Program-made: the position numbers and the translations under genes
Part shown: in pieces, positions 4,104-63,629 of the stretch
Numbering within the stretch: the first letter of the stretch is position 1
Layout: every line of letters begins with the position of its first letter
Notes under the pieces: generated by a model
Seen by the model: the letters and a program-made list of their open reading frames with translations, nothing else
Database searches by the model: none
What the model was told of the DNA's origin: nothing
NCBI GenBank assembly: GCA_900319105.1
Contig: ONND01000005.1
Coordinates: 62,001 to 126,000, forward strand
Reading direction: 5' to 3'
Length of the DNA: 64,000 bases
Source of the DNA: an uncultured Bacteroidales bacterium
GTDB lineage: Bacteria; Bacteroidota; Bacteroidia; Bacteroidales; Paludibacteraceae

Positions 4104-4138
4104 TCATTTACCATTTATTCATTTACCATGTACCATTT
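4104..4138. repeat. 7-bp tandem array (CATTTAC type) at the dxr-rseP junction
   Basis: About five imperfect units based on CATTTAC. Read on the minus strand, the array supplies the last residues and stop codon of Dxr (EQMVHGK, stop at 4119) and the 18-bp spacer before rseP. Confidence 0.75.
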
Positions 4139-5282
4139 GCTCCGCGAGACGGCGAGCCTCAGCGTCTGAGGCGACATAGTCCTCATAAACCGGTTTTGTA
4201 ATGAATACCGTATTATCCATCGTATTGGCGATGATGTCGCTCATCTGCAGGAAACCGCATCTTCCTTCACGGAAAGCCAGGTTAGCCACCTCGTTAGCGG
4301 CATTGAGTACGCAGGGCATATTTCCTCCGCGTCGCATTGCTTCGTACGCCAACCCCAAATTCGGGAAACGTGCCAAGTCGGGTTCTTCGAAACTCAGATC
4401 CTTCAAAGCAAGCAGGTTCGCACGGGGAAAATCGCTCTTCAGCCGTTCGGGGAAGGAGAGGGCGTATTGGATAGGCAGCCGCATGTCGGGTGCACCGAGT
4501 TGCGCCTTGATGGCTCCGTCTGTGAACTGCACCGCCGAATGGACGATCGACTGCGGATGAACGAGCACTTGGATCTTCTCCACCGGCACACCGAACAACC
4601 ATTTGGCCTCGATGACCTCAAATCCCTTGTTCATCATAGAGGCGGAATCGATAGTTATCTTCGCGCCCATAGACCAATTGGGGTGCTTAAGAGCGTCGGC
4701 TGCTGTCACGGTTTTCATCTGTTCGAGGCTGAAGGTACGGAAAGGCCCGCCACTCGCCGTCAGAAGGATTTTCTCTATCTCGTTTTGGTCTTCGCCAACA
4801 AGGCTCTGGAAGATAGCACTGTGTTCGCTATCCACCGGTAAGATTGGCGTATGATGCTTCGCTGCGAGGTCACATATGATCTCACCCGCCACGACGAGTG
4901 TCTCCTTGTTCGCGAGGGCTATCGTCTTACCCGCTTTAATTGCCTCTATGGTAGGTCTGAGACCTGCATAGCCGACCATCGCAGCCACGACGATGTCGAT
5001 ACTCGGCATCGTCACTACATCGGCTATCGCATCCGCTCCACTCCATATTTTCCCCTCAAAACCGACGTCTGACAGCCGATGGCTGAGTTCCTCATACAGC
5101 GTCTCATCGGCAATACACACCACTTCGGGTCGGAACTCTGACGCCTGCTCTACCAGTTTGTCAATACTCCTATTCGCACAAAGCGCGTACACACTATAGC
5201 GCTCGGGGTACGCCCGCACTACGTCCAGCGTCTGTGTGCCGATCGAACCCGTCGAGCCTAATATACAAAGTTGCTTTACCAT
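4119..5282 (-). CDS. dxr: 1-deoxy-D-xylulose 5-phosphate reductoisomerase
   Basis: 387 residues, normal length. Converts DXP to 2-C-methyl-D-erythritol 4-phosphate with NADPH, the first committed MEP-pathway step. The NADPH-binding motif GSTGSIGTQTLDVV is at residues 8-21; the metal and substrate region DSEHSAIFQ is near 150 and MGAKITIDSASMMNKGFE near 205-222. Other MEP genes in the window are ispG (15.0 kb) and dxs (52.5 kb). Its start overlaps the end of the upstream M23-like gene by 7 bp, so translation is probably coupled. The final few residues are encoded by a 7-bp tandem array, so the C-terminus may differ from relatives. Confidence 0.97.
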   Translation of the reverse strand: MVKQLCILGSTGSIGTQTLDVVRAYPERYSVYALCANRSIDKLVEQASEFRPEVVCIADETLYEELSHRLSDVGFEGKIWSGADAIADVVTMPSIDIVVAAMVGYAGLRPTIEAIKAGKTIALANKETLVVAGEIICDLAAKHHTPILPVDSEHSAIFQSLVGEDQNEIEKILLTASGGPFRTFSLEQMKTVTAADALKHPNWSMGAKITIDSASMMNKGFEVIEAKWLFGVPVEKIQVLVHPQSIVHSAVQFTDGAIKAQLGAPDMRLPIQYALSFPERLKSDFPRANLLALKDLSFEEPDLARFPNLGLAYEAMRRGGNMPCVLNAANEVANLAFREGRCGFLQMSDIIANTMDNTVFITKPVYEDYVASDAEARRLAEQMVHGK

Positions 5283-6088
5283 ACAATCACCTCCTCGGGG
5301 TTAACAAACCTCCCGGCCTCCCAGATTTCAAACACCAGTTCTTTCTCACCGTCCATGATACCGATGGCCTCGCCGGCCTCTACCAACGCGCCCTGTATCT
5401 TCAGCGGTTTCGCCACATGGCGGTAGATGGACATATACGGCGTATGTTGTACAATAAGGGTATAGGTGTTATCCTCCGCCCTCTCAGCCAACACGACGTG
5501 CCCTCGCATGATAGAGAGCACGTTCTCATTCCGCGCTGTCTTTACCCACACGGCATACTGATGTTCATCGGGTTCGGCAGACTGCATGATCACCCCGCGC
5601 ACGGGGCGGTACAACTGCGGCATCGTTTTGCTCAACGCATTTTCGTAGAGCGAGAGACGTTCGTGCTCTTTCTGTTCGTATTGGGCGATGAAAGCCTCGG
5701 TCACTTCGTTGCGTTGCTGTTCGAGTATCTGCGCACGCTCCACTCGCTGCAGCGAGTCCAGGCTACGCACACTGTCGGTCTCTATATCGCCGGCGGTGAG
5801 CTGCTTGATCACATCCAGGTACTGCCGTTGCAGCGTCAAGTCCGCCTGCAGGCTATCGACCCGAGCAGACTCTTGTACCAACTGCTGACGAAGGCTCGCA
5901 CTATACCCCGGCAATATATTGCGCAGCGGGGTATAAACGATCAGTACGGACAGCAACACAATCAGTGCGATGATGGACAGCGTAATCATGCTGATAGCAC
6001 CCAACAGACTGACGCGGAAGTGAAACACTTCGCGCAGCGTGATGTCATCCAGCATCGCCAACCGGTATTTATGTCGTTTACTAGCCAT
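5276..6088 (-). CDS. Membrane-anchored M23-like protein with degenerate zinc site
   Basis: 270 residues from ATG 6088, which overlaps the fumarase stop (TAATG); an upstream in-frame ATG at 6112 lies inside fumarase and is less likely. One membrane helix (about 30-55), a coiled-coil region (65-150), then an M23/LytM-like beta domain (about 160-270). Active M23 endopeptidases carry HxGxD and HxH zinc motifs. Here the first reads HQYAVWV (His176 kept, Asp replaced by Trp181) and the last is LVFEIW (251-256) where HLHFEI is expected, so the zinc site looks lost. It may act as a cell-wall scaffold or amidase activator, as EnvC does, rather than as an enzyme. Dxr neighbours of this kind are common in Bacteroidota. 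Confidence 0.85.
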   Translation of the reverse strand: MASKRHKYRLAMLDDITLREVFHFRVSLLGAISMITLSIIALIVLLSVLIVYTPLRNILPGYSASLRQQLVQESARVDSLQADLTLQRQYLDVIKQLTAGDIETDSVRSLDSLQRVERAQILEQQRNEVTEAFIAQYEQKEHERLSLYENALSKTMPQLYRPVRGVIMQSAEPDEHQYAVWVKTARNENVLSIMRGHVVLAERAEDNTYTLIVQHTPYMSIYRHVAKPLKIQGALVEAGEAIGIMDGEKELVFEIWEAGRFVNPEEVIVW

Positions 6089-15026: not shown

Positions 15027-16394
15027 CTATTTTTTTTGATCGCTCTCGATAAGCGATAATAGCTGCTCTACGGCTTCTTCCTGCGGGATATTTTTGAGGA
15101 CACACTCTTTGCCGCGATAGAGGGAAATGCGATCACGTCCGGCTCCCACATAGCCGTAATCGGCATCCGCCATCTCACCGGGGCCGTTCACTATACAGCC
15201 CATGACGGCTATTTTTAGTCCTTGGTCCTTAGTCGTTAGTCGTTGGTCAAGCGCAGCTTTTACCTTATGGATGGTGTCCTCTAAATTGAACATTGTTCGT
15301 CCGCACCCCGGGCAGGAGATATACTCCGTTTTATATATACGTACGCGCGCGGCTTGCAGGATATCTTTGCTCAGGAAATTGAGTTTTGTCTCCGAGAAAT
15401 TCGGATTGACCAGCGTCAGTTCGGTAGCCTTGTAATCCCAAAGCAGACGTCCACATTCAGCCGCAGCCTGCAGGCAGTACAGGTTCCAGTCCGTCTCATA
15501 ACTCGTATAACGGATCTCTGCGTCACCGCCGATATTATCCAATACCTCGGCCGTCATACTGCCATCATAACGGATGGAGTCTTCGTCTGTGAAGTAGTCC
15601 ACGAGGTCTTGGGCAACCGGAATCTCGTTCTCCGGCGCCTCGGAGAGGCTGACACGGATGGTGTCTCCGATGCCATCTGCGAGCAGGGCACCTATACCGA
15701 CGGCGGACTTGATTCTTCCGTCCTCGCCTTCACCGGCCTCTGTCACACCAAGATGCAAGGGGAAAGCCATTTGCTCCTTGTCCATCGTCTTGACCAGCAA
15801 GCGGACGGTTTCCACCATAACGCGTGTATTGGAGGCCTTGACGGAGATGACGATATCCTTGAAATCCTGTTCGACGGCGATGCGAAGGAACTCCATGACG
15901 GAGGCTACCATGCCTTGCGGCGTGTCGCCGTACTGGTTCATCATCCGCTCAGAGAGTGAACCATGATTTACACCGATACGAATTGCCGTATGATGCAGAC
16001 GACATAGATCAAGCAGGTGGAGAAAACGCTCCCTCAGTTTGGTCTCGTCTTTGCTATAGTTGCCTGGGTTGATACGGACGGCTTCGACCACTTGCGCCGC
16101 AGCGTCCGCTACTTCGGAATTAAAATGTACATCCGCCACCAGCGGCACAGCGGTTAACACTTGCGCGTGGATCTCGCGGAGCGATTCCACTTCTCTGAGA
16201 CCCTGCGTCGTGAAACGCAACAACTCTGCTCCGGCTTCGATGCAACGTCTGGCTTGATCGACAGAAGCGTCTATATCGTTGGTCGAAGTGTTCGCCATCG
16301 TCTGAATTCGGATGGGGTAGTCGGAACCGATAAAAATGTTGCCAACTTGCACATTGATGGTCTTTCTTCGCTTATTTTCTAATTTTATTTGCAT
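15027..16394 (-). CDS. ispG: 4-hydroxy-3-methylbut-2-enyl diphosphate synthase (IspG/GcpE), with shortened insert
   Basis: 455 residues. Converts MEcPP to HMBPP with a 4Fe-4S cluster. N-terminal TIM barrel (about 1-270; MANTSTNDIDASVDQARRC, VADVHFN, VRINPGNY). The C-terminal cluster domain has CPGCGRT near 365 and GCIVNGPGEMADADYGYVGA near 403, giving the three cysteines. Bacteroidota IspG proteins usually carry a large extra domain between these and reach about 600 residues; here only about 90 residues remain (275-360). A 7-bp tandem array encodes LDQRLTTKDQGL just before the last Cys motif. Heads the minus-strand operon. Confidence 0.94.
   Translation of the reverse strand: MQIKLENKRRKTINVQVGNIFIGSDYPIRIQTMANTSTNDIDASVDQARRCIEAGAELLRFTTQGLREVESLREIHAQVLTAVPLVADVHFNSEVADAAAQVVEAVRINPGNYSKDETKLRERFLHLLDLCRLHHTAIRIGVNHGSLSERMMNQYGDTPQGMVASVMEFLRIAVEQDFKDIVISVKASNTRVMVETVRLLVKTMDKEQMAFPLHLGVTEAGEGEDGRIKSAVGIGALLADGIGDTIRVSLSEAPENEIPVAQDLVDYFTDEDSIRYDGSMTAEVLDNIGGDAEIRYTSYETDWNLYCLQAAAECGRLLWDYKATELTLVNPNFSETKLNFLSKDILQAARVRIYKTEYISCPGCGRTMFNLEDTIHKVKAALDQRLTTKDQGLKIAVMGCIVNGPGEMADADYGYVGAGRDRISLYRGKECVLKNIPQEEAVEQLLSLIESDQKK
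15216..15248. repeat. 7-bp tandem array in ispG
   Basis: AGTCCTT, GGTCCTT, AGTCGTT, AGTCGTT, GGTC: four and a half units. In frame with ispG on the minus strand. Confidence 0.85.
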
Positions 16395-17097: not shown

Positions 17098-18588
17098 ATG
17101 AAAAAGATATTTAGATTTTTGGGCATCGGACTGCTCGTCGCAGCCGTCAGCGCCGCAACAACACTCGCTGTCTTGAAATACAGCAATCCGCAATTTCAAA
17201 TCACCAATTACAAATCACAAATCACTAATGATTCCACCGGAATCCCTGTCGCCTACAGCCGTTTTGCATCTCTGCCGCAGGCAGGCGAGACGGATTTTAC
17301 CAATGCGGCGGAACTCTCTGTCAATGCCGTAGTCCACGTCAAGACGACCTACCGCAACCAGGTTTCCTCGCAGCAGATGGACCTCTTTGAGTTCTTCTTC
17401 GGCCGTCCGGGACAGCAACGTGAGATGCCGGCGCAGCAGGCGTCCGGTTCGGGTGTCATCATCTCCGAGGACGGTTATATCGTCACTAACAACCACGTCA
17501 TCGACCGTGCGGACCAGATTCAGGTTGTCCTCAACGACAAACGCGAGTACACGGCTACGCTGGTCGGCACCGACCCGAACACGGATATCGCGCTCCTGAA
17601 AATCGAAGAGACAGGTCTGCCGGTGATCCTGATGGGCAACTCCGACGACCTGCGCGTCGGCGAATGGGTGCTTGCGGTCGGCAATCCGTTCAACCTCACT
17701 TCGACCGTCACGGCAGGTATCGTGTCCGCCAAGGCGCGTAACATCAACATCCTTAACGCAGAGATGAAGATTGAGTCGTTCATCCAGACCGACGCGGCAG
17801 TCAATCCTGGCAACTCCGGCGGTGCGCTGGTCAACACACGCGGCGAACTGGTGGGTATCAACACCGCCATCGCCTCGCAGACCGGTTCCTATTCAGGCTA
17901 CAGTTTTGCCGTTCCGACGAGTATCGTGCAGAAAGTGGTGAGCGACATCCGCCAGTACGGCGTTGTGCAACGCGCTATCCTCGGCGTGCAGATGCGTGAG
18001 ATCACATCTGAACTTCAGAAAGAGAAAAAACTGACGACCCTTCAAGGGGCATACGTGGAACGCGTAGTGCCGGACGGTGCGGCGGAGAAAGCAGGCATCA
18101 AGAGCGGCGATGTGATTACGCGTGTTGACGATGCGGCTGTCAAGACCGGCACTGACTTGCAGGAACATATAGGTCGTCACCGTCCGGGTGATGTAGTGAG
18201 CGTGACGCTGCTCCGTGATGGCAAGACCATGACCGTTCAGGCAACGCTCACCAACCGCGAAGGAGGCACGGGAGTCATCTCAGCCGAAGACAAAGCGTCT
18301 GTCCTGGGTGCTACGTTCTCCGAACTGACCGATGCGCAGAAAGAGCGGCTGGGTATCAACTACGGCTTGCAGATCAAGTCGCTCAAGGCAGGCAAACTGA
18401 AGAGTGCCGGTGTTCCCTCGGACTTCATCATCTTGAAAGTCAACAACCGCTCCGTGCGCACCGAGGAAGACCTTGACGACATCGTCCGCCGTGCCAACTC
18501 AGCCTCCGAGCGCGACCGCGTTCTGTTTATCACGGGATGTACACCGCAAGGCAGAGTTCGATATTATGCTGTCAATCTGGCAGAATAA
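17098..18588 (+). CDS. htrA: Periplasmic serine protease HtrA/DegP
   Basis: 496 residues from ATG 17098 (MKKIFRFLGIGLLVAAVSAA signal/anchor). Trypsin-like domain with triad His133 (TNNHVID), Asp163 (TDIALLKI) and Ser240 (GNSGGALV), then two PDZ domains (about 290-375 and 410-495). It degrades or refolds damaged envelope proteins. A 7-bp array adds QFQITNYKSQITND right after the signal region (32-45), in a linker where it should be tolerated. A sigma-54 type promoter sits just upstream, unusual for this gene and suggesting stress control through an RpoN activator. Terminated by the hairpin at 18613. Confidence 0.96.
   Translation: MKKIFRFLGIGLLVAAVSAATTLAVLKYSNPQFQITNYKSQITNDSTGIPVAYSRFASLPQAGETDFTNAAELSVNAVVHVKTTYRNQVSSQQMDLFEFFFGRPGQQREMPAQQASGSGVIISEDGYIVTNNHVIDRADQIQVVLNDKREYTATLVGTDPNTDIALLKIEETGLPVILMGNSDDLRVGEWVLAVGNPFNLTSTVTAGIVSAKARNINILNAEMKIESFIQTDAAVNPGNSGGALVNTRGELVGINTAIASQTGSYSGYSFAVPTSIVQKVVSDIRQYGVVQRAILGVQMREITSELQKEKKLTTLQGAYVERVVPDGAAEKAGIKSGDVITRVDDAAVKTGTDLQEHIGRHRPGDVVSVTLLRDGKTMTVQATLTNREGGTGVISAEDKASVLGATFSELTDAQKERLGINYGLQIKSLKAGKLKSAGVPSDFIILKVNNRSVRTEEDLDDIVRRANSASERDRVLFITGCTPQGRVRYYAVNLAE
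17190..17230. repeat. 7-bp tandem array in htrA
   Basis: CAAATCA/CAAATTA-type units (about five), in frame, encoding the repeated QITN peptide. Confidence 0.85.
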
Positions 18589-41111: not shown

Positions 41112-41118
41112 AAAAAAC

Positions 41119-41153
41119 ATTTACCATTTAGTCATTTACCATTTACAATTTGG
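41119..41153. repeat. 7-bp tandem array (CATTTAC) between argS and GT2
   Basis: CATTTAC, CATTTAGT, CATTTAC, CATTTAC, AATTTGG. Supplies the last codons (PKL) and stop of the GT2 gene; same word as at 4104. Confidence 0.8.
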
Positions 41154-46053: not shown

Positions 46054-47481
46054 ATGATATCCACTTTTTATTTACCGGGCAGAGTATGCTCGACGAAGGC
46101 GATCAAAGAAATAGCAGAAAAAGCCTCAGCGCAGTACACGATGATCTGTCTCAAGCCCGACATCGAATGGGTGTATTTGGGACAAGAGCGAATGATCCAA
46201 GTACTGGAAATGACCGGCGCAACGATGGTCTATGCCGATCATTTCAATAAAGTACAAAGGGACCATGTACAAAGTACAAAGGAAGAGTTATGGGACATTT
46301 CCGAAGCTCCGGTCATTGACTACCAAATAGGTGCGTTGCGCGATGACTTCGATTTCGGTGCGGTACTGCTGTGGGACACCCAAAAACTGAAATCCATTGT
46401 CTCACAGATGGACACCGAGTATGAGTTCGGCGGATTGTACGACTTGCGATTGAGAGCCACGGAAAGTGACCAAGGGACAAAGGACCAAGTACCATTAGTC
46501 CATATTCCCGAATACCTCTATTATGAGGTAGAAAACGACACCCGTAAGTCCGGAGAGAAACTCTTCGACTATGTCGATCCGCGCAACAGAGCTGTTCAGA
46601 TAGAGATGGAAGCGTGTGTTACGGCGCACCTCAAGCGCATTGGAGCTTACCTCCAACCCGGCGAGTACAAGACTCTTCCTCAAGCCGGAGAATACCCTGT
46701 AACGGCAAGTGTTATCATTCCTTGCAAGAACCGTGTTAAGACCATCGCCGATGCCATTCATTCGGCTCTGAGCCAAAAAGTGCGCGCTCCCTACTCCTTC
46801 AATGTTATCGTGGTCGATGATAACTCCACCGATGGTACCGCTCAGAAAATACAAGAATTGATGAATGGTGACGCTTCGCTTAATGGTGCGAATGGTGAAT
46901 TGATTTATATTGTCCAGGACAAGACCTGGCATGCGATCGGCGGCAACTGGAACGTGGCGATTCATGACCCGCGGTGCGGCAAGTATGCCATTCAGTTGGA
47001 TAGCGACGATACCTATTTCGACGAGAACACCGTGCAGAAATTCATCGACACCTTCGCCGGTTTAGACCCGGAGCAAGACAGCCATGCGACGCCTAAGTAC
47101 GGCATGGTCATCGGTACGTATCAATTAACCAACATGGCCGGTGAGATCTTGCCTCCGGGCGTGATTGACCACCGCGAGTGGACGGACGATAACGGACGTA
47201 ACAACGCTCTCCGCATCAACGGTTTAGGTGCTCCGCGTGGCTTCTATGTGCCACTCCTGCGAACGATAAATTACCCGACAACGAAGTACGGCGAGGACTA
47301 TGCTGTTGGTTTGCGCATCAGTCGTGACTATCCTATCGGACGTATCTACGACGTCGTCTATAACTGCCGTCGATGGGAAGATAATTCCGATGCCAACTGC
47401 GACATAGTCGCCATGAACCGTAACAACTGGTACAAGGATCGCTTGCGCACTTTTGAACTCTTGGCTCGGATTAGGGGTTAG
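46054..47481 (+). CDS. Family 2 glycosyltransferase with N-terminal extension
   Basis: 475 residues from ATG 46054 ([15 protein letters not shown]); a GTG 15 bp upstream overlaps the LRR stop and is a weaker choice. Residues 1-200 form a domain without clear match; residues about 215-470 are a GT-A domain ([60 protein letters not shown] with the metal DSDD). Two 7-bp arrays are in frame in the N-terminal half ([23 protein letters not shown]) and a weaker one lies in the GT domain. Followed by SpoIID and methyltransferase genes, a conserved neighbourhood in Bacteroidales. Confidence 0.85.
46251..46284. repeat. 7-bp tandem array (GTACAAA) in glycosyltransferase gene
   Basis: GTACAAA, GGGACCAT, GTACAAA, GTACAAA, GG; encodes [10 protein letters not shown]. 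Confidence 0.88.
46464..46497. repeat. 7-bp tandem array (GGACCAA type) in glycosyltransferase gene
   Basis: AGTGACC, AAGGGAC, AAAGGACC, AAGTACC; encodes [11 protein letters not shown]. Confidence 0.75.
46863..46900. repeat. Possible degenerate 7-bp array (AATGGTG) in glycosyltransferase gene
   Basis: Three AATGGTG words spaced by unrelated bases; encodes [13 protein letters not shown]. Confidence 0.4.
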
Positions 47482-48517: not shown

Positions 48518-49604
48518 ATACAAGCACCTCTCCGACGACGAATGGCGATGGTTCTTGCAGCAAGTCGAGGGTCGCGAACGAACGGCAGACAAACTGCCTT
48601 CTTTTGCCGCCATCGAGGATTGGTGGTATCCCGTGCGACTGAGTTGCGAGCAGTGCTCCTCGGAACTTGCTGCCAGGTATAAAGCAAGCCTTGTTAGCGG
48701 CAACAGGATGGTTGATCTGACAGGCGGCTATGGAGTAGATACGTACTTCATGAGCGAACAATTCCAACATACAGACTATGTTGAGCAAAATAGCGAACTA
48801 TGCCGCATTGCCGAGCATAATTTCGCCCAAAAGCCTATATCTATTCACAACTCCACCGCCGAAGACTTTCTCAATACCGCAAGTTTGTATGACCTTATTT
48901 TTCTTGATCCAGCGCGGCGAGACAGTCATGGAGGCAAGGTCTTCCGGCTCGAAGACTGTACACCGAATGTAGTAGAACTACTCCCTGTTTTATTGCAACA
49001 CAGCAAGCGACTGATGATCAAACTGTCACCCATGCTGGATCTGACGCAAGCCGTCAACGCCTTGTCGCAAGTGACTTGGGACATTTATGTCGTCGCCATT
49101 AAGAATGAGGTCAAGGAAGTGCTGCTGTTGAGCGGAGGTTCGGGACAGATCACAGCAATCGATCTCTCACATCCCAAACAGGCGTTTACTTTCACAAGAG
49201 AGGAAGAGGCTGCCAGCGAAGCGGTCTGTCAGCCAGGAGGGCGGTCTGTATTCTGTCAGGCGCAGTCGGTCTATCTCTACGAGCCCAATGCCGCGATACT
49301 CAAAGCCGGCGCGTATAAGTTAGTGGGAGAGCGGTTCGGGTTGCATAAATTAGATATCAACACCCACCTCTATACCTCCGAGACACTCGTGGAGAATTTT
49401 CCCGGACGAGTATGGAAGATTCTGGAGCAGTTACCAAATCACAAATTACAAATCACAAATGCGAACGTTCTCGTGCGCAATTATCCGCTGACAGCAGAGC
49501 AACTCAAGAAAAAACTGCACCTCCGCGATGGAGGTACAGAGTATATCATTGGATGCAGAGTGAATGGCAAGCCCACGGTTCTTCTTGCCGAACGATGCCA
49601 CTAA
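48486..49604 (+). CDS. Class I SAM-dependent methyltransferase with THUMP-like domain
   Basis: 372 residues; starts inside the SpoIID gene (32-bp overlap). The N-terminal helical part leads to a Rossmann methyltransferase core: MVDLTGGYGVDTYFMSEQF near 78-96 (SAM motif I), DLIFLDPARRDSHGGKVFRL near 135 (motif IV, DPAR), then a C-terminal THUMP-like/ferredoxin-like domain. This matches the Bacteroidota PG_1098-type family, probably an RNA methyltransferase; substrate unknown. A family C palindrome encodes CQPGGRSVFCQAQS near 250 and a 7-bp array encodes NHKLQITNANV near 320. Confidence 0.88.
   Translation: MVQDLALQRNKYKHLSDDEWRWFLQQVEGRERTADKLPSFAAIEDWWYPVRLSCEQCSSELAARYKASLVSGNRMVDLTGGYGVDTYFMSEQFQHTDYVEQNSELCRIAEHNFAQKPISIHNSTAEDFLNTASLYDLIFLDPARRDSHGGKVFRLEDCTPNVVELLPVLLQHSKRLMIKLSPMLDLTQAVNALSQVTWDIYVVAIKNEVKEVLLLSGGSGQITAIDLSHPKQAFTFTREEEAASEAVCQPGGRSVFCQAQSVYLYEPNAAILKAGAYKLVGERFGLHKLDINTHLYTSETLVENFPGRVWKILEQLPNHKLQITNANVLVRNYPLTAEQLKKKLHLRDGGTEYIIGCRVNGKPTVLLAERCH
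49222..49260. repeat. Family C palindrome in methyltransferase gene
   Basis: GGTCTGTCAGCC, AGGAGGGC, GGTCTGTATTCTGTCAGG: the reverse orientation of the family consensus. Confidence 0.7.
49433..49461. repeat. 7-bp tandem array (CAAATCA) in methyltransferase gene
   Basis: CAAATCA, CAAATTA, CAAATCA, CAAATGC; encodes NHKLQITNAN. Same words as in htrA at 17190. Confidence 0.88.
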
Positions 49605-50444: not shown

Positions 50445-52308
50445 GACGGGAGACAGATGTTAAGATTTCGTATGTGATCGTACCGAGTTTATCGGCCAGT
50501 TCCTGTAGCGGCAGTTTATCGCCGAAGATCTCCACGGCGTCACCGGGTTGGGCGTCGGTGCCGGTTACATCGATCATGGCTTGGTCCATGCAGACGTTTC
50601 CGACGACCGGACAGCGCTTGCCGCGAACGAGCACCTCGCCGCCGTAGTTAGAGAACCGGCGGTCAAAACCGTCGGCATAGCCGATTGGTATCACAGCGAT
50701 CGTGCGGTCCTCGCCGAGTTTTGTATGCCGTCCATAGCCGATAGTCTCACCCGCACGCACGGTTTTGACAGAAAGGATTGTCGTGCGCAGTGTACACACG
50801 TTGCGTAAGTGTGCACCAGCGAAGGAGAAACCATACAAACCTATTCCGAGACGGCACATGTCGAACTGGTAAGCGCTGAACCGCTCTATTCCCGCCGAGT
50901 TCAGAATATGCTTGAATACCTTTGTACTTAGTCCCTTGTCACTTAGTCCCTTTATTAGTTCCTCGGCACAGGCGTCGAAATAACGAATCTGCGAGAGGGT
51001 GAAGTCGTCAAACTGAGGTTCGTCGCTTCCTGCGAGATGGGAGAAGACAGACGCCACACGTACAGCATTTGTAGCCTTGAGGCGTTCGATGAGCGATGGC
51101 ATCTCTTCTTTATAGAAGCCCAGACGGTGCATGCCGCTGTCGATCTTCACGTGGATCGGGAAATGTTCCAGCCCCTTTGCTTCGGCGGCACCGATAATAT
51201 TCTCCAGCGAGGCGAAGGAATATACGTTCGGCTCGAGGTTGTTCTCGATGATCAAGTCCAAGGCCGCCACTTCGGGATCCATGATGATAATAGGAAGTGT
51301 GATTCCTGCGCGGCGCAACTCCACCCCTTCGTCTGCGACGGCAACTGCCAGGTAATCCACCATTCCGCTCTTCTGCAGTGCCTTGCTCACTTCCACACTT
51401 CCCGCACCATAAGCGAACGCCTTGACCATGCAGGTCAGTTTGGTTTCGGGCTTAAGGAGACTCCGGAAGTAACGCACGTTGTCCACGAGCGCCGAGAGGT
51501 TGACCGACAGCACCGTTTCGTGCGTCTGATGCAGGATTCTCGCAGCGATGGTCTCCTCGTCGTAGCCTAACGCCCGCAGCACGGCCGCACAAGTGCGTGC
51601 GTTCTGGTGCGTCGGATCTTCGATGACGGTCTGCGCATGCGCAAAGAGTTTCATTTTCTCTTCGCGCTTCTGCTCCAACGATGCGAAGTTCTCATCGTGC
51701 TCATGACCGATATAGGTGACGACGCCTATCGTCGGACGGATAATACGCTCCAGTTTGGACATCTCCCCGGGCTGCGAGATACCTGCCTCAAAGAGACACA
51801 GCACTGGCTTGGGCTTGCTCATCTTGGCTTGCAGTTCTTCACGGCCGGTCAGTTGCCAAACCGAGAGAGGAACACCTATCTGCGAGTTGTAGGACTTAGG
51901 CGAACGAATGATTGTATAGTCGTCCTTGAGCAACTGGTAGAGCCATTCTTTAACCACCGTCTTTCCGTTCGAACCGGTAATACCGATGACCGTACCGTTG
52001 AACTGCGAACGCACGTACGCTGCGAGTGCTTGCAAGGCCTCCAACGCATTTCCCGTCACGAACGCCTGCACACCCTTGGCCTGCAATTCGGGGATATACT
52101 TGGCACCGTCATTCTTTTCGGTCTTGATAGCAAAAAACAAAGTCTGGGATGCCTTTGTACTTTGTACCTTGTCCTTTGTACATTGTACATTGCTCCCTTG
52201 TACATCCAACTGGCGACTATCCGTCAGCAGATAACGGATCTCCAAATTATCATCGCCGCTGACGGAGGCTACAGAGCCTATTGCTTGTTTTATTTCCGAT
52301 AGTTTCAT
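50416..52308 (-). CDS. MurF-alanine racemase fusion with eroded MurF part
   Basis: 630 residues from ATG 52308 (MKLSEIKQAIGSVASVSGDD). Bacteroidota normally have a MurF-Alr fusion of about 820-840 residues. Here residues 1-255 hold the MurF N-terminal and part of the ATPase domain (GITGSNGKTVVKEW P-loop near 115; SPKSYNSQIGVPLSVW; PTIGVVTYIGHEHDENFASL), but after RTCAAVLRALGYDEETIAAR the text goes straight to Alr, so the end of the ATPase domain and the whole C-terminal ligase domain are missing in frame. The Alr part (about 262-630) is complete: PLP lysine in MVKAFAYGAG, GYGRHTKL with the Tyr base, VGNVCMDQAMIDVTG. MurF activity is doubtful. Two 7-bp arrays are in frame. Confidence 0.9.
   Translation of the reverse strand: MKLSEIKQAIGSVASVSGDDNLEIRYLLTDSRQLDVQGSNVQCTKDKVQSTKASQTLFFAIKTEKNDGAKYIPELQAKGVQAFVTGNALEALQALAAYVRSQFNGTVIGITGSNGKTVVKEWLYQLLKDDYTIIRSPKSYNSQIGVPLSVWQLTGREELQAKMSKPKPVLCLFEAGISQPGEMSKLERIIRPTIGVVTYIGHEHDENFASLEQKREEKMKLFAHAQTVIEDPTHQNARTCAAVLRALGYDEETIAARILHQTHETVLSVNLSALVDNVRYFRSLLKPETKLTCMVKAFAYGAGSVEVSKALQKSGMVDYLAVAVADEGVELRRAGITLPIIIMDPEVAALDLIIENNLEPNVYSFASLENIIGAAEAKGLEHFPIHVKIDSGMHRLGFYKEEMPSLIERLKATNAVRVASVFSHLAGSDEPQFDDFTLSQIRYFDACAEELIKGLSDKGLSTKVFKHILNSAGIERFSAYQFDMCRLGIGLYGFSFAGAHLRNVCTLRTTILSVKTVRAGETIGYGRHTKLGEDRTIAVIPIGYADGFDRRFSNYGGEVLVRGKRCPVVGNVCMDQAMIDVTGTDAQPGDAVEIFGDKLPLQELADKLGTITYEILTSVSRRVQRVYFYE
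50918..50955. repeat. 7-bp tandem array in alr part
   Basis: GTACTTA, GTCCCTT, GTCACTTA, GTCCCTT; encodes KGLSDKGLSTK on the minus strand. Confidence 0.85.
52153..52206. repeat. 7-bp tandem array in murF part
   Basis: GTACTTT, GTACCTT, GTCCTTT, GTACATT, GTACATT, GCTCCCTT, GTACATC: seven units. Encodes VQGSNVQCTKDKVQSTKAS on the minus strand. Confidence 0.92.
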
Positions 52309-52330: not shown

Positions 52331-52361
52331 CAAAGGTACAACATTTTTTTTGAATGTGCAA
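52331..52361 (-). promoter_or_regulatory. Promoter of murF-alr
   Basis: Minus strand: TTG, 20 bp, TACCTTTG, 23 bp before the ATG. Confidence 0.85.
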
Positions 52362-52382
52362 GAAAAAACAAAGATTTTTAAA

Positions 52383-52515: not shown

Positions 52516-54435
52516 ATGGACTATAAGTACATCAATAAGATTGATTCGCCGGCGGATCTGAAGAAGTTGAGAGTGGAAGAGTTGCCGGAAGTATGCGCAG
52601 AGCTGCGCCAATTCATCATTGAGGCGCTGAGTAAGAACCCCGGACATTTGGCTTCGTCCCTGGGTGCGATTGAGTTGACCGTGGCGCTGCATTATGTCTT
52701 CAATACGCCGGAGGATAAATTGGTATGGGATGTAGGGCATCAGGCGTACGCCCATAAGATCCTTACAGGCCGTCGGGACCGTTTCCATACAAACCGTCAG
52801 TTCAAAGGCCTTTCTCCTTTTACCAACCCCGCTGAGAGCGAATACGATGCGTTTATTGCCGGCCATGCCAGCAACTCGATTTCCGCGGCATTAGGTATGA
52901 ACATCGGCGGAGACAAGAACGTGGTTGCGATCATCGGGGATGGCGCATTGACTGGAGGTCTGGCGTTTGAGGGACTGAACAACACGTCGATGGACAAGAA
53001 CAACCTGCTGATTGTTCTCAATGACAACCACATGGCTATCGATCCGCTCAAGGGCGGTATCACGCAGTACCTGGTCGATCTGACTACCAGTTCAACCTAT
53101 AATAAATGGCGCTGGAGGCTTTATCAGTTGGCCGAAAAACTGCACCTCATGGACGAACGCAAACGTCGTGCGATGTTACGCCGCAACAATAGTCTGAAAG
53201 CCGTTTTTTCCGAACAACAGAGTAATATCTTCACGGGTCTCAACATCCGCTATTTCGGTCCTACGGACGGTCATGACGTCGAGGGCTTGGTTCGTATCCT
53301 AAGCGAGATCAAGAACCACCGTGGTCCTAAAGTGCTGCATATTATCACCAAAAAAGGAAAAGGTTATGCACCCGCGGAGAACGACCAGACCGTTTGGCAT
53401 GCTCCGGGGGAGTTTAATGTAGCCAACGGCCAACGGCTAACAGCTAATAGCCAGGATACGCCTCTTTGGCAAGAGGTGTTCGGCGAAACGCTGCTGGAGT
53501 TGGCAAAGAAAAATGAGAAGATCGTTGGTATCACACCGGCTATGCCGAGCGGATGTTCGATGAGTATCATGCAAAAGGAGTTTCCTGACCGCGTGTTCGA
53601 CGTCGGTATCGCCGAAGGGCACGCCGTGACGTTCAGCGCAGGTCTGGCAAAAGCGGGGATGGTACCTTACTGCAATGTCTATTCCACTTTTCTTCAACGC
53701 GCATACGATAATATCGTCCACGATGTAGCGTTGCAGAACCTGCATGTGGTGCTCTGTATAGACCGCGCGGGTATCGTTGGCAACGACGGCGCAACGCACC
53801 ATGGTCTGTTGGATCTCGCGTACCTGCGACCAATACCGAACATGCAGATCTGCGCTCCAAGGACAGCCGAGGATCTAAGAGAGATGTTGACACTCGCGGA
53901 GACACTTGACGGACCTGTAGCAATCCGGTATCCAAGGGGCAGAAGCCCCCTCCAACTCCCCCATGAAGGGGGAGAGCCCTCTAAGAAGGTGGAGTATGGC
54001 AAAGGCGTGAAGTTGCGGGACGGAGAGGATATCGCGGTTCTGACCATCGGAAGTATCGGCAACGCGATGAGCGAAGCCATTGATTTAGCTGTTAGCCGTT
54101 GGCCGTTAGCCGTTAGCGAAAAACCAATAGCCAATAGCCAAAAGCCAATAGCTCACTACGATATGCGGTGGTTGAAGCCGCTGGACGAAGAGATATTACA
54201 CGAAGTAGGACGAAAATACAAGACTATCGTCACCGCCGAGGACGGCATTATAGCCGGCGGCTTCGGAAGCGCGGTACTCGAATGGATGAGTGACCATGGC
54301 TACTCACCGCGCATTATACGGCTTGGCGTGAACGACCAGTTTGTAGAACATGGTTCAACCAAAGAATTATACCATTTATTGAAATTAGATAAGGAGGGCT
54401 TATGCGAATCGTTATTGCAGGCGCAGGCGAAGTAG
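52516..54435 (+). CDS. dxs: 1-deoxy-D-xylulose-5-phosphate synthase
   Basis: 639 residues from ATG 52516 ([20 protein letters not shown]). Condenses pyruvate and glyceraldehyde 3-phosphate with TPP, the entry to the MEP pathway. [20 protein letters not shown] near 75, [20 protein letters not shown] near 150 (TPP/Mg), [18 protein letters not shown] near 370 (catalytic Glu) and [20 protein letters not shown] near 425. Three repeats are in frame: a 7-bp array ([13 protein letters not shown]), a family B palindrome ([17 protein letters not shown]) and a long 7-bp array ([14 protein letters not shown] then [12 protein letters not shown]). Its stop lies 34 bp inside trkA. Confidence 0.97.
53420..53452. 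repeat. 7-bp tandem array (GCCAACG type) in dxs
   Basis: GCCAACG, GCCAACG, GCTAACA, GCTAATA, GCC; encodes [12 protein letters not shown]. Confidence 0.88.
53943..53983. repeat. Family B palindrome in dxs
   Basis: CCCCCTCCAACTCCCCC, ATGA, AGGGGGAGAGCCCTC; encodes [13 protein letters not shown]. Confidence 0.82.
54085..54152. repeat. Longest coding 7-bp tandem array, in dxs
   Basis: About nine units drifting from TTAGCCG to CCAATAG. Encodes heptad peptide units [26 protein letters not shown]. Confidence 0.92.
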
Positions 54436-57221: not shown

Positions 57222-58523
57222 ATGAGACCGTATAAAGTTCTGATATTTATAGCCTGTGTGATGGGATGCCTGGCAGCACTATGCGTAGTGTTGCCCGGAC
57301 GCCTTGCGTGGGGAGATACGGAACTGAGATGGCCGACGATAGCGGAAGTACTAAGCACCAACCAACCTCCCCATGAAGGGGAGGAGATAGAGCAACTAGA
57401 TACTCTAGAGAGACTAGATACGCTAGATACGCCAGCCCCTCCGGAGAAGAGCGAGGAGAGGCTACCCATTCCCAAGATCACTGTTGATTCAACCACTGAT
57501 AGCCGTATCTTCCTGCAGGCATTCTATGCCTCCTTGGCAGAGGTGGGGCACCGGCGCATTCGTGTGATGCACTACGGGGATAGTCAGATCGAAGAAGACC
57601 GCATGACGATGCAAATCCGTTCTACACTTCAAGCGCGCTACGGCGGTCGGGGTATTGGCCTAATGCCGCTCGCCCAGACGATCCCTACTCTCACGGAAAA
57701 ACAGCAACTCTTCATGAACGGCCGGTACGTAAGCCCGGCGCAAGGCCCGAGACGCTATTTCGTCTATGGCTACAAACGTGACCAACGTAGCGACGGGCTG
57801 TATGGTGTCATGGGACAGATGGCGGAGATGAACGACAGTCTGGTGAGCGGCAGTGAGCAGATGATGGCTGTTTGTACGCCGCAGGGAAAGCAAGCACGAT
57901 ACACCCGATGGCAAGTGTTCGCCGACAGTACCATCCGGGCAACTCTCTCCGGCGACACAGTGCGGTTGGCGGGTAAAGGAAACGTTTATGGTCTGTCGCA
58001 GGAGAGCGAGACAGGTATCATCGTCGATAATATCCCCATGCGAGGCTGTTTGGGTACGGTCTTCACGAAGATCGACAGTACACAGTTGGCGGATTTCTAC
58101 CGCGAACAGAACGTGCGGCTGATCATCCTGCAGTTCGGAGGCAATGCTATACCCTCCAACCAGAACCCCGGCACCATCCAGAGTATCGTAAGGGGTTTGC
58201 GGGAACAAGTACGTTTCTTACGGACCTGCGCCCCGCAAGCTTCGTTCCTCTTCATCGGTCCGAGCGACATGCTCACTCAGACGGACGGTGAATGGCACAC
58301 CTTCCCTATGGTGCCCTACATGGATAAGTTACTGCGTAAGATGGCGCTTGAAGAGAACATCGCTTATTTCAGTTTGTATCGCTGGATGGGCGGTGCCGGT
58401 AGTATGATGAGGTGGCAGGAGATCGGTCTGGCAGGCTCGGATGGCATACATTTTACCCGCGCCGGGGCACGCAAAGCCGGAAATGCGGTCGCAGATTGGA
58501 TATTGGAGGGGATAGAGAGTTGA
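57222..58523 (+). CDS. Periplasmic SGNH-like hydrolase, partner of MBOAT
   Basis: 433 residues; N-terminal helix VLIFIACVMGCLAALCVVLP acts as anchor or signal. SGNH blocks: RVMHYGDSQIEEDRMT near 112 (GDS serine), LQFGGNAIPSNQNPG near 305 (block III, GxN), GSDGIHFTRAGARKAGNAV near 407 (block V, DxxH). Next to an MBOAT acyltransferase, it probably hands an O-acyl group to, or removes it from, an envelope polysaccharide, like AlgJ/AlgX. Residues about 45-70 are made of a family B palindrome and a 9-bp array (LDTLERLDTLDT), in the linker after the membrane segment. Confidence 0.85.
   Translation: MRPYKVLIFIACVMGCLAALCVVLPGRLAWGDTELRWPTIAEVLSTNQPPHEGEEIEQLDTLERLDTLDTPAPPEKSEERLPIPKITVDSTTDSRIFLQAFYASLAEVGHRRIRVMHYGDSQIEEDRMTMQIRSTLQARYGGRGIGLMPLAQTIPTLTEKQQLFMNGRYVSPAQGPRRYFVYGYKRDQRSDGLYGVMGQMAEMNDSLVSGSEQMMAVCTPQGKQARYTRWQVFADSTIRATLSGDTVRLAGKGNVYGLSQESETGIIVDNIPMRGCLGTVFTKIDSTQLADFYREQNVRLIILQFGGNAIPSNQNPGTIQSIVRGLREQVRFLRTCAPQASFLFIGPSDMLTQTDGEWHTFPMVPYMDKLLRKMALEENIAYFSLYRWMGGAGSMMRWQEIGLAGSDGIHFTRAGARKAGNAVADWILEGIES
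57365..57390. repeat. Family B palindrome in SGNH gene
   Basis: CCTCCCC-ATGA-AGGGGAGG; encodes QPPHEGEEI. Confidence 0.7.
57398..57440. repeat. 9-bp tandem array (CTAGATACG) in SGNH gene
   Basis: CTAGATACT, CTAGAGAGA, CTAGATACG, CTAGATACG; encodes LDT-LER-LDT-LDT. Confidence 0.88.
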
Positions 58524-58556
58524 AAGTTGAAAGAAGTTTTAAAGTTGAAAGTTGGA
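58516..58556. repeat. 7-bp tandem array (GTTGAAA) before the MBOAT gene
   Basis: GTTGAAA, GTTGAAA, GAAGTTTTAAA, GTTGAAA, GTTGGAC. It covers the end of the SGNH gene, the gap and the apparent TTG start of MBOAT. Confidence 0.85.
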
Positions 58557-60450
58557 CTTTTTACACCACATATTTGCCTTTGATGAGAACAGCCCGCTGC
58601 TGTTCACCCAGTTCTATTTCTGGGCGTTCTTCGCGTTGGTGTATGCGCTCTTCGCGCTAATAATGTCTGTTGGCAAAACGACGAACAGCAAATTGCACCT
58701 GCGCAACGTCTATCTACTCTTTGTCAGTTGGTTCTTCTATTATAAAACGAGCGGGCTCTTCCTGCTTATTCTGGCATTTGTAACCCTGAGCGATTGGCTC
58801 ATCGCCGGACGGATAAAATCAGCCATCACAAACAACAAACCACAAATAGCCAAAATCTTTTTGACCCTCTCAGTGGCAATAGATTTAGGCATACTGGCTT
58901 ATTTCAAGTATGCCTACTTCTTTACGAACGCCATCAACGACCTATGCGGTACAGATTTTCGGGTATTTGATATCTTCGCCTATATAGGGAACGGTTTTGC
59001 CGAGGCGGGTCGGTTCAGCGTTGATACAATCGTGCTGCCGGTAGGTATCTCGTTCTATATCTTCCAGGTAATCTCTTATACGGTGGATGTTTTCCGGGGA
59101 CGGATACAACCGGTGAGGAACATCCTTGATTTCGGCTTCTACGTCTCCTTCTTCCCGCAGTTGGTAGCCGGACCTATTGTGCGTGCGGAAGAGTTCATCC
59201 CCCAGTTATACAAGCCCTTCCGTCTCAACCGCAGGGCTTTCGGCATCGCGGTCTTCTGGATCATCAACGGCTTGGGAAAGAAGATTATTATGTCGGATTA
59301 TTTGGCGGTGAACCTCATTGATCGCGTCTTTGACAACCCGCTCCTTTTCTCGGGTTTTGAGAACCTCTTTGCCCTCTTCGCGTATTCGCTGCAGGTCTAT
59401 GCGGATTTCTCCGGGTACACGGATATCGCGATCGGCGTAGCCATGCTGATGGGTTTCTATCTGCCGATGAACTTCAACAGCCCGTATAAGTCACAGAGCC
59501 CTCAGGAGTTCTGGCGCAGGTGGCATATGTCGCTCGGTCGATGGCTCAAGAGTTACCTCTATATCCCCTTAGGAGGAAACCGTAAGATCGGGTTCGGTAC
59601 TTATTTCTGGTTGAGTCTGATCGCGCTGGTGTCGGCAGCCCTCACCGGCTGGTGGTGGATTATTGCAGCTGTTGGCTGTTTGCTGTTGGCTATTGGCATT
59701 ATTGACCGCAGGCTAAAAGCGAAAGGCCAAGAGCTAAAAGCAAAGAGCAAACTCCTCTACTCCAACCTCAACTCGTTCATCACCCAGGTGCTCGGCGGTC
59801 TATGGCACGGCGCGAGTTGGAATTTTATCATCTGGGGAGGCATCAACGGTTTCGGAATGATCATAGAGAAGATCTGGCGTGAGACAGGATGGCATCTTCG
59901 TTTCGTCCTCATAACGCTCTTGACTGCCGGCCTATGCGTCGCTGATTTCTACACCAACCTTCCGGCATGGCGGCTCTTCGCCGTCTGGGCAGCAATCATA
60001 TGGGTCGGTACCGCTATCCGGTATATCTATTTCCTCTACGAGGGAACGGAGAATACGTTCACAAAAGCGATGGCGACCGCGTGGGCTGTCCTTCAGACGT
60101 TTACCTTCATCACGTTCACCCGTTTGTTCTTCCGCTCATCGAGCAACCTCGATCCGGCGACGGCAAATGAAGTAGCGTGGGCGACGGCGAAGAACATGGT
60201 CAATCAGATCGGCGGGGCATGGAACAACGCCATCATCCCGGATTTCCTGTGGGAGTACCGATGGGTGGTAGCGATGTTCATCGCCGGAATGCTCATCCAC
60301 TGGGTACCGACGAATTTCAAACGCCGGTATCGTCTATGGTTCAGCGCCATGCCTCTATGGCTGATGGTCCTCGCCGTCTGTGTCGCCATCATCGTCATTT
60401 ATCAGTTCGTCTCCGCCGAGATGCAACCGTTTATATATTTTCAGTTTTAG
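58552..60450 (+). CDS. MBOAT-family O-acyltransferase
   Basis: 632 residues, about twelve membrane helices. MBOAT core about 100-470: GISFYIFQVISYTVDVFRGR, FVSFFPQLVAGPIVRAEEF-like text (SFFPQLVAGPIVRAEEFIPQ), FWRRWHMSLGRWLKSYLYIP, and the active-site histidine in GGLWHGASWNFIIWGGINGF. Moves acyl groups across the inner membrane for O-acetylation of a polysaccharide with the SGNH partner. The start appears to be TTG 58552 (LDFLHHIFAFDENSPLLF), where relatives have ATG; a 7-bp array has overwritten this junction. Two further arrays encode AITNNKPQIAK near 95 and a stretch around 375-400 (RRLKAKGQELKAKSK). Confidence 0.93.
   Translation: MDFLHHIFAFDENSPLLFTQFYFWAFFALVYALFALIMSVGKTTNSKLHLRNVYLLFVSWFFYYKTSGLFLLILAFVTLSDWLIAGRIKSAITNNKPQIAKIFLTLSVAIDLGILAYFKYAYFFTNAINDLCGTDFRVFDIFAYIGNGFAEAGRFSVDTIVLPVGISFYIFQVISYTVDVFRGRIQPVRNILDFGFYVSFFPQLVAGPIVRAEEFIPQLYKPFRLNRRAFGIAVFWIINGLGKKIIMSDYLAVNLIDRVFDNPLLFSGFENLFALFAYSLQVYADFSGYTDIAIGVAMLMGFYLPMNFNSPYKSQSPQEFWRRWHMSLGRWLKSYLYIPLGGNRKIGFGTYFWLSLIALVSAALTGWWWIIAAVGCLLLAIGIIDRRLKAKGQELKAKSKLLYSNLNSFITQVLGGLWHGASWNFIIWGGINGFGMIIEKIWRETGWHLRFVLITLLTAGLCVADFYTNLPAWRLFAVWAAIIWVGTAIRYIYFLYEGTENTFTKAMATAWAVLQTFTFITFTRLFFRSSSNLDPATANEVAWATAKNMVNQIGGAWNNAIIPDFLWEYRWVVAMFIAGMLIHWVPTNFKRRYRLWFSAMPLWLMVLAVCVAIIVIYQFVSAEMQPFIYFQF
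58824..58851. repeat. 7-bp tandem array (CACAAAC type) in MBOAT gene
   Basis: CACAAAC, AACAAAC, CACAAAT, AGCCAAA; encodes AITNNKPQIAK. Confidence 0.75.
59665..59697. repeat. 7-bp tandem array (GCTGTTG) in MBOAT gene
   Basis: GCTGTTG, GCTGTTT, GCTGTTG, GCTATTG, GC; encodes AAVGCLLLAIG within a membrane segment. Confidence 0.85.
59711..59749. repeat. 7-bp tandem array (GCTAAAA type) in MBOAT gene
   Basis: GCTAAAA, GCGAAAG, GCCAAGA, GCTAAAA, GCAAAGA, GC; encodes RLKAKGQELKAKS. Confidence 0.88.
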
Positions 60451-61611: not shown

Positions 61612-61613
61612 AA

Positions 61614-62837: not shown

Positions 62838-63530
62838 CTATGCCGGTTCGTTGAGCAGGTCCATAAACTCCATCGTGCGGCTCTCGAGCAGACGAACAAC
62901 GCGGTCGATACGGGCTACGAGGTAGTTATAGGCGAACATCGCCAGAATACCGACGATCAGACCACCGATAGTCGTCACCATCGCCTGGTACATACCGGTA
63001 GAGAGCGCACTCATCTCGATAATACCGCCGGAGGTCTGCGCCATGTTATAGAAGGTCTGAACCATACCGAGTACCGTACCGAGGAAACCGAGCATCGGAG
63101 CACCGCCGGCTACGGTCGCCAGCACGACGAGACCTTTCTCCAGACGACCGACCTCGATATTTCCTACGTTCTCCACGGCTACCTGTACATCCTGCATCGG
63201 ACGGCCGATACGCGAGATTCCTTTCTCGATCATGTGCGCCGAAGGGGTGTCGGTCTGCTTGCACAGGTTCTGAGCCGAGTCGATCTTACCCTCATGAATA
63301 TAGTCGCGAATGCGATCCATGAAGGATTTATCTTCGCGCGTAGCCTGCTTGAGCACCACCAGGCGCTCGATGAAGATATAACATGCGCCACAGAGCAGGA
63401 TAGCGAGGATGATCATGATCCAGCCGCCGTACTGCGCCATTTCCCAAAGGTTCATAGATTGCTGAACGGGTTCTTCGATAGCTGCTACCTGTTCTTCTAC
63501 CGCAGCCAATGTGTCAATTTGTAATAACAT
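62838..63530 (-). CDS. exbB: ExbB/TolQ/MotA-type proton channel
   Basis: 230 residues from ATG 63530 (MLLQIDTLAAVEEQ). Three membrane helices: about 36-56 (WIMIILAILLCGACYIFIE), 140-165 (GAPMLGFLGTVLGMVQTFYN) and 180-205 (MVTTIGGLIVGILAMFAYNY). GFLGTVLGM is the family signature. First of the exbB-exbD-tonB trio. A large 7-bp array fills the gap upstream. Confidence 0.94.
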   Translation of the reverse strand: MLLQIDTLAAVEEQVAAIEEPVQQSMNLWEMAQYGGWIMIILAILLCGACYIFIERLVVLKQATREDKSFMDRIRDYIHEGKIDSAQNLCKQTDTPSAHMIEKGISRIGRPMQDVQVAVENVGNIEVGRLEKGLVVLATVAGGAPMLGFLGTVLGMVQTFYNMAQTSGGIIEMSALSTGMYQAMVTTIGGLIVGILAMFAYNYLVARIDRVVRLLESRTMEFMDLLNEPA

Positions 63531-63538
63531 ATTAATTT

Positions 63539-63629
63539 TCAAATTTCAAATATCAAATATCAAATGTCAAATATCAAATCTCAAATCTCAAATGACAAAT
63601 GTCAAATCTCAAATCTCAAATCTCAAATG
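63539..63629. repeat. Largest 7-bp tandem array (CAAATNT), exbB-pdxJ gap
   Basis: About thirteen units CAAATAT, CAAATGT, CAAATCT and CAAATGA, filling almost the whole gap between pdxJ and exbB. Intergenic, so length is not limited by frame. Confidence 0.95.

Follow-up and report, generated by a model that had tools for sequence, protein, structure and literature searches.

Why should tandem arrays with a 7-bp unit sit inside the housekeeping genes of a bacterium? Coding microsatellites in bacteria are expected mainly with a unit that is a multiple of three, and an array of 7-bp units would break its host gene two times in three, yet in the group described here such arrays are found genus-wide in tRNA synthetases, GTPases, RecF and isoprenoid enzymes. 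The question is raised by a stretch of 64,000 nucleotides (the window) from an uncultured Bacteroidales bacterium of the Paludibacteraceae, positions 62001-126000 of contig C5 of genome G000 (2.26 Mb, 30 contigs), in which a first-pass annotation had listed 20 arrays and ascribed them to one mechanism that fixes length rather than sequence. Its observation is partly confirmed and its interpretation partly supported by the analysis reported here. Both the 7-bp excess and the recurrence of identical, variant-bearing arrays at unlinked loci are observed directly; alignment shows the arrays, at the sites compared, as in-frame additions in protein loops; and the sequences strongly indicate that preformed arrays have been copied to unlinked loci.

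The 7-bp excess in the window and in related genomes

We scored matches at a lag of 7 nucleotides, counting segments at a score of at least 10 and, in a stricter set, at least 14, with Tandem Repeats Finder (TRF) run in parallel and the chance level for the window taken from 10 third-order Markov shuffles. The window holds 17 lag-7 segments at the lower threshold against a mean of 0.6 in the shuffles, and 11 at the stricter one against 0.0; at the latter, periods 4-6, 8, 10, 12 and 13 give no segment, period 9 gives three and period 11 two. A sample of 395,552 bases, made up of the window and 20 stretches from contig starts of G000 and hence a part of the genome, contains 55 arrays of period 7, against 1, 10 and 12 for periods 6, 8 and 11, with 0-2 arrays for each of the periods 3-6. 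The excess over periods 6 and 8 is therefore present, and unit length stays constant while words change, as had been proposed. The unit is less strict than described: period 7 dominates, but in the near relatives (LeuS loci L001-L064 and L066, 1.2 Mb, whose genus membership is not established) 148 segments of period 7 are accompanied by an excess of periods 8 (36 segments), 11 (84) and 22 (53). Chance or low complexity as the source of the arrays is rejected, and an assembly artefact is opposed by identical LeuS arrays in separately assembled metagenome-assembled genomes (L005, L016, L034, L066 and L030).

Open reading frames (ORFs), called by a simple greedy procedure, cover 90.6% of the genome sample and contain 37 of its 55 period-7 arrays, with 10 at ORF edges and 8 between ORFs; array density is thus higher between genes, yet coding arrays are still the majority. 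The share within ORFs varies across the genus (3/17 in G014, 9/15 in G017, 0/3 in G011), and two genus genomes sampled at known array places, a biased choice, have 34/60 in ORFs. The distant Bacteroidales set (L065 and L067-L080, 298 kb) has 3 period-7 segments, G026 has 2 arrays in 100 kb, and two other genera of the same family have none in the 187 kb sampled, as have G120 (25 kb) and G160 (60 kb). Among other families, G240 carries 8 in 100 kb, G385 4 in 68 kb, G386 6 in 60 kb and G300 7 in 20 kb, where G240 was picked because a reversed control pattern matched there and part of G385 for its matches; only 3 of these 25 arrays lie within ORFs. In other Bacteroidales, then, constant length with changing words is mostly an intergenic phenomenon.

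Within the window, 17 of the 20 arrays first listed were recovered, by a lag-7 score of at least 10 or by TRF, and those at 46251, 47466 and 47913 were not. A location within housekeeping genes is borne out for leuS, dxs, murF-alr, ispG and argS; the arrays at 4105 and 41118 lie at gene edges and that at 63534 is intergenic. The htrA array is within its ORF, but precedes the conserved domain (TIGR02037 match, residues 74-477). The arrays are as follows, with lag-7 scores.

4105..4138, minus strand: CATTTAC 7-bp array at the 3' end of dxr and in the dxr-rseP gap, a gene edge (TRF only; ORFs and NCBIfam names)
15215..15248, minus strand: TTAGTCC/TTAGTCG 7-bp array within ispG (TIGR00612); score 19
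17183..17229, plus strand: CAAATCA 7-bp array near the 5' end of the htrA ORF; score 18
18920..18953, minus strand: 7-bp array, AGCAATC on the coding strand, at leuS site 3; score 27, alignment and AlphaFold model
20668..20705, minus strand: 7-bp array of GTACAAA words at leuS site 1, residues 277-289; score 13
40879..40919, minus strand: TTAGCCA 7-bp array within argS (TIGR00456), absent from the first list; score 16
41118..41151, minus strand: CATTTAC 7-bp array at the argS start and in the gap upstream; TRF, score 10
46471..46494, plus strand: short CAAGGGA/CAAGTAC 7-bp array in a glycosyltransferase-like ORF with NCBIfam matches below cut-off; score 11
49435..49460, plus strand: CAAATCA 7-bp array near the 3' end of ORF 48486-49604, which has no NCBIfam match; score 15
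50922..50963, minus strand: degenerate array in murF-alr (TRF only, as a 15-bp period)
52153..52192, minus strand: CTTTGTA 7-bp array in the murF part of murF-alr; score 23, alignment of relatives
53422..53451, plus strand: GGCTAAC 7-bp array in dxs, with other words here in relatives; score 17
54085..54152, plus strand: double 7-bp array in dxs, with GTTAGCC followed by AATAGCC; score 35
58515..58533, plus strand: weak GAAAGTT 7-bp array at the end of ORF 57222-58523; score 10
58828..58846, plus strand: weak ACAAACA 7-bp array in the DltB-like ORF 58552-60450 (TIGR04091 match below cut-off); score 10
59668..59697, plus strand: GCTGTTG 7-bp array in the same DltB-like ORF; score 17
59712..59751, plus strand: GCTAAAA 7-bp array in the same ORF, directly after the preceding array; score 15
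63534..63628, no strand assigned: intergenic array, the longest in the window, with a CAAATNT unit in about 13 copies; score 70

The segment 16711-16739, outside the first list, also scores at lag 7; it is T-rich and probably of low complexity.

Added protein loops and the reading-frame filter

To what extent are the coding arrays additions? LeuS relatives in named records bear the titles Paludibacteraceae or uncultured Bacteroidales, and many are ruminant-derived. The LeuS alignment comprised 66 sequences (the window and 65 near relatives) together with 15 outgroups. At site 3 the loop measures 51 nt in 40/66 sequences and in all 15 outgroups and is longer in 26/66; 13/66 carry period-7 arrays there, built from six words (AGCAATC, the related AGCCGTC, AGTCGAA, AAATGTC, CTCAACT and ACCAAGT), one sequence has a period-8 array, and others have palindromic or unrelated inserts. 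Site 1 measures 78 nt in 58/66; in the other 8 it is longer, a period-7 array being present in five of these, and 1/15 outgroups is longer too. In the relative L023, LeuS has the same downstream flank as in the window and a different array word. In an AlphaFold model of LeuS, site 1 (277-289) is placed in predicted coil between two strands, and site 3, a peptide of 12 residues (860-871, numbered from the ATG at 21532), is mostly coil following a helix, with a block pLDDT (predicted local distance difference test) of 55 between neighbours of 90 and 89. The model comes from a single job with a mean pLDDT of 71.7, so the placement of the loops is only moderately certain.

Other proteins repeat this pattern. 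Alignments of relatives show four array sites in Dxs and several in MurF-Alr, with words that differ by species. In EngB we compared the hairpin flanked by LINHFL and WHLVDLPG in the 30 best-matching genomes of the 98 with any match: 4 have it bare (15 nt), and 11 have a period-7 segment there at a score of at least 8. Many relatives lack arrays at the loops of LeuS, Dxs and EngB, and at these aligned sites the arrays consequently read as in-frame additions to the loops. An all-against-all blastn of the near-relative loci for clean filled/empty pairs gave 164 indels, 25 of them assigned to periods 7, 14 or 21, mostly unrelated ones of 23 bp and 28 bp, with no clean single-unit slippage beyond the doubtful case of L032/L030.

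A reading-frame filter acts on the coding arrays. With exact duplicates dropped, coding arrays of 3.0, 3.5, 4.0 and 4.5 copies number 23, 23, 47 and 27, and intergenic ones 16, 14, 12 and 16. Since three further units add 21 bp, a seed plus three units gives four copies, and the coding peak at 4.0 fits this step; a smooth fall of copy number with length is not seen for the coding arrays and is compatible with the intergenic ones. The words of coding arrays are free of stops in 88/108 cases on the coding strand against 41/108 on the opposite strand, and in dxs of G003 a unit that would read TAA in frame has, by inspection, a changed base.

The same loops also receive palindromic inserts of the CCCTCC...GGAGGG type, likewise in frame (peptides such as TPTPSQGEG and LSLEGRAGEG). 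In the window one occupies 53941-53979 in dxs, a palindromic insert of 13 residues that folds at -14.6 kcal/mol.

Identical arrays at unlinked loci

The first-pass annotation had also noted that words recur at unlinked loci. This proved correct: 64 arrays yield 27 pairs with identical words, where local 7-mers predict 1.8. Over 226 distinct arrays from the near relatives and the sampled genus genomes, falling into 125 word classes, the probability that two words are identical is 0.0098, where local 7-mers would give 0.0010 and a trinucleotide model 0.0038. Arrays less than 2 kb apart share words more often than most of those farther apart. This is clearest in the near-relative loci, where same-locus pairs more than 10 kb apart are also high (0.206 at a match of at least 6/7); some nearest pairs may be fragments of one array. 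The words are AT-rich, with 33% GC against 50% locally.

Recurrence goes beyond single words. In the genus set (101 genomes, one per species), the 30-mer AGTCGAAAGTCAAAAGTCGAAAGTCGAAAG is found with up to one mismatch in 42 genomes and is missing from 59; counting overlapping matches inside longer arrays, 14 genomes have at least 10 matches, with 40 in G079 as the highest count, and the genome of the window has 1. A reversed-pattern control gives 2 matches in total over the 101 genomes. Among the exact copies, 54 rows were read, 50 of them distinct, and 47 were classified, one per locus, from ten genomes with exact copies. By the longest open frame, 27 are read in sense frame 1, one in sense frame 0 and six antisense, and 13 have no spanning frame; 27 of the 28 sense copies thus use the same frame, and in L216, counted as antisense, there is in addition a sense frame matching its neighbour L215. 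NCBIfam names 9/10 of the host proteins tested, and the array lies inside RimO, KdsB, RecF, EngB/YsxC, BirA, HisS, PheT and RsgA, while in L242 it precedes the LptB domain. The host in L235, RsgA-like by appearance, has no NCBIfam match at 1e-30; Dxs and MurF-Alr, named by inspection, also host exact copies.

What surrounds these copies gives no sign of transposon ends. Flanks are not conserved among the exact copies compared, direct flank repeats of at least 4 nt occur in 5/47 (3.6 expected), inverted flanks of at least 5 nt in 0/47 (0.8 expected), and the 30-mer itself folds at -3.6 kcal/mol, with no strong hairpin and no palindrome. What the copies do share is internal detail. In G045 and G110 the variant unit stands second in 20/25 single-variant arrays (p 1e-8 were the four positions equally likely). 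Among the versions compared, with G045, G110, G115 and G079 covered in full, one with an extra change in the third unit, synonymous in frame 1, is absent from G045 and G110 and present in G079 and G115.

In the genome of the window itself, the 26-mer TTAGCTGTTAGCCGTTGGCCGTTAGC lies in dxs at 54085-54110, recurs inverted with one mismatch at 53422-53447 of the same gene, and is found exactly on contig C15; the dxs arrays at 53422 and 54085 have 23 identical bases, inverted. Elsewhere among the 101 genomes it has one one-mismatch relative in each of two. The intergenic array at 63534 has 27-28 bases, inverted, in common with two arrays inside ORFs of contig C13; being plain repeats of a single word, they are evidence of a shared word and not of copying. 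In G110, loci L229 and L235 (kdsB and the RsgA-like gene) each have a 30-bp array followed by the hairpin GTCGAGTAGGCTYGAC, nearly alike and one base apart, and from this arrangement array and hairpin may move together.

Birth, copying and competing explanations

The account towards which we lean, with no great confidence, is that arrays are born by slippage, that blocks of about 30 bp are copied elsewhere, and that the survivors are those standing in frame in loops. Mechanistically, slipped-strand replication favouring a 7-nt step would give birth to short arrays and lengthen them. Segments of about four units (about 30 bp) would then be copied in either orientation by recombination or template switch needing no conserved flanks. 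Arrays landing in frame and free of stops in protein loops would survive, the remaining ones would persist only intergenically or vanish, and point mutation would erode the survivors, which another word may overwrite. Three parts of this scheme we infer: that arrays originate by slippage, that template switching copies them, and that the inserts are nearly neutral. The earlier proposal of a single length-fixing mechanism stands only in part: length is fixed, but the proposal is incomplete, as preformed arrays with internal variants recur at unlinked loci. A stronger version, in which an own enzyme or repair pathway copies the heptamer blocks of about 30 bp in frame into loops across the proteome, we regard as unlikely; if true, such a copying system would keep giving essential proteins new loops from a shared word pool.

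Several observations weigh against slippage followed by copying. The long and short loops at LeuS site 2 differ by replaced as well as added bases, and clean empty sites were not obtained. Local sequence resembles the resident array in EngB of G061 and G102 and at LeuS site 1, which fits local birth, and composition accounts for part of the word recurrence, as the trinucleotide model makes plain. Peptide selection could maintain the common frame and some of the variant order (R to Q in unit 2). In G385, which belongs to another family, AGTCRAA, a degenerate form of the recurring word, gives 47 matches, and those fetched lie in long intergenic arrays (for example at about 3996-4074 of its contig C12); the word can therefore arise or travel outside the genus, and some recurrence may be word bias rather than copying. 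The search with this word over 295 genomes of the order matched only in G000, G345 and G385, and its reversed control gave 8 matches in G240 and 1 in G190, which also points to heptamer arrays of other words across the order. Finally, the genomes are without exception draft assemblies, ORFs were called crudely, and the data contain no strain pairs, so that no single copying or slippage event is seen.

Could slippage on the spot suffice? If arrays grew from local seeds without movement, tolerant loops would collect them and composition together with coding constraints would produce the recurrence. Heptanucleotide bias plus slippage is the published explanation of such repeats in the available portions of PMC4692102 and PMC4679880, and the coding copy-number peak at 1+3 units, the AT-rich words, as slippage-prone DNA would have, and the same word in another family all agree with it. 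The shared variant order already puts it under strain, since identical 30-mers, down to the order of the variant unit, stand in unrelated genes within a single genome. Nor does it readily give a private 26-mer at three places, one of them inverted, word sharing 2.5 times that of the trinucleotide model, or the G110 copies in KdsB and the RsgA-like protein with a near-identical hairpin after the array. We therefore judge it improbable as the whole explanation. Slightly more doubtful is a small mobile element with a dedicated enzyme, comparable to the Rickettsia palindromic elements, to repetitive extragenic palindromes (REP) and their REP-associated tyrosine transposases (RAYT), or to miniature inverted-repeat transposable elements (MITEs). 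Dispersed copies in frame in unrelated genes, the single shared frame of the sense copies, a patchy distribution between species (42/101) and the palindromic inserts in the same loops are what such an element would leave; against it stand the lack of shared flanks, terminal repeats and any excess of target duplications, words that differ freely, and a 30-mer that has no strong hairpin. Y1 transposases, moreover, are absent or weak in the genus. A search of 25 genus genomes for the Y1 (RAYT/IS200) transposase, the one transposase family covered, gave a best match of 34.6 bits, with weak matches over the cut-off in 8/25 and only one, below the cut-off, in G000, whereas 11/16 genomes of other families have matches above 50 bits. 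RAYT/IS200 is on these grounds rejected as mover of the heptamers, a rejection that does not extend to the palindromic inserts.

Retention for a function, as regulatory sites in DNA or RNA or as adaptive loop peptides that tune protein contacts, appears the least probable of these explanations. The common frame and the charge-balanced peptide VESQKSKVES in 27/28 sense-strand coding copies would suit it, as would the cold-shock protein binding heptamer repeats that is mentioned in the available text of PMC4679880, but close species differ in word, length and presence at the same loop, and many species have a bare loop in the same protein. Loss of mismatch repair as a simple cause is rejected: MutS1 is over the cut-off in 24/25 genus genomes including G000 and missing only from G018, itself 54% complete, in a search that did not extend to MutL or other repair genes. 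With MutS1 present and Y1 absent or weak, the arrays are explained neither by a simple loss of MutS nor by RAYT activity. As an observation apart, most of the 25 genus genomes lack a third MutS-like protein, of about 610 aa, that occurs in many other Bacteroidales families; G005 and G012 have a third match.

How much of this is new depends on the repeats already described. Cyanobacterial heptamer repeats go by the name of STRR (short tandemly repeated repetitive) sequences. According to Mrazek et al. 2007, as cited in the portions available of PMC4679880 and PMC4692102, heptanucleotides are the commonest class of long simple sequence repeats (SSRs) in most genomes; polymerase slippage was proposed, with 7 nt as the contact length of the polymerase, and units in multiples of three are likeliest in coding DNA (both from PMC4679880). 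The same partial sources report intergenic over-representation of the Xanthomonas and Nostoc heptamers and mention Calothrix heptamers (PMC4692102). The arrays described here resemble these long SSRs, as far as cited, in the dominant 7-bp unit, differing words and patchiness between genomes; they differ in coding position, with 37/55 in ORFs in the genome of the window against an intergenic enrichment of the heptamers in Xanthomonas and Nostoc, and in the identical arrays at unlinked loci. TAACTGA repeats, known from Beggiatoaceae, some Cyanobacteria and five Bacteroidetes (PMC4679880, in part), are likewise patchy 7-bp tandem arrays at many loci, but have one fixed word and, in the Beggiatoaceae genome, mostly lie right upstream of start codons. 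Subirana and Messeguer 2021 (PMC8161180, in the portion available) describe, for Bacillus and others, tandem repeats that keep their size while their sequence varies; the per-genome constancy of unit length is common to both, whereas their units are of 20-21 or 52 nt and that portion does not report in-frame spread in essential genes. A fixed length with changing sequence is consequently not new in itself, being known already from these heptanucleotide and Bacillus repeats. Rickettsia palindromic elements, of about 150 bp, are inserted in frame in unrelated genes with a conserved peptide (PMC10969869, in part). They share with the present arrays shortness, dispersal, in-frame position in unrelated genes and a conserved peptide frame, and are unlike them in being palindromic, the arrays being of about 30 bp, built of tandem 7-mers and without a palindrome. 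MITEs and REPs differ from the arrays in that the 47 copies show neither terminal inverted repeats nor target-site duplications beyond chance.

The new elements, relative to known heptanucleotide repeats, are the invasion of coding sequence and the copying of preformed arrays. The suggestion that in-frame spread through essential genes was undescribed is upheld as far as the top-ranked matches in open-licence literature go, where titles and abstract openings held no recognisable description of it. In-frame heptamer arrays in the loops of many housekeeping proteins of a ruminant-gut group are unusual for bacterial repeats, the more so when a single array has as many as 40 matches in one genome and shows no transposon ends. 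They amount to a natural experiment on the loop tolerance of essential proteins, and the question of why 7 nt is a favoured repeat length becomes testable by comparative genomics. For annotation they call for caution, as the inserts make close orthologues look divergent.

Two further observations concern the same stretch. Arrays with 11- and 22-bp units, the second excess class in the near relatives, occupy 22731-22779 and 38306-38358 of the window, and a GGTCTGTCAG-like family of such arrays forms in-frame inserts in Dxs of relatives. MurF-Alr (50416-52371 in the window) is mostly 610-720 aa long in the genus, against 769-841 aa for the fused protein of other families, with about 200 MurF residues missing between query residues 252 and 273.

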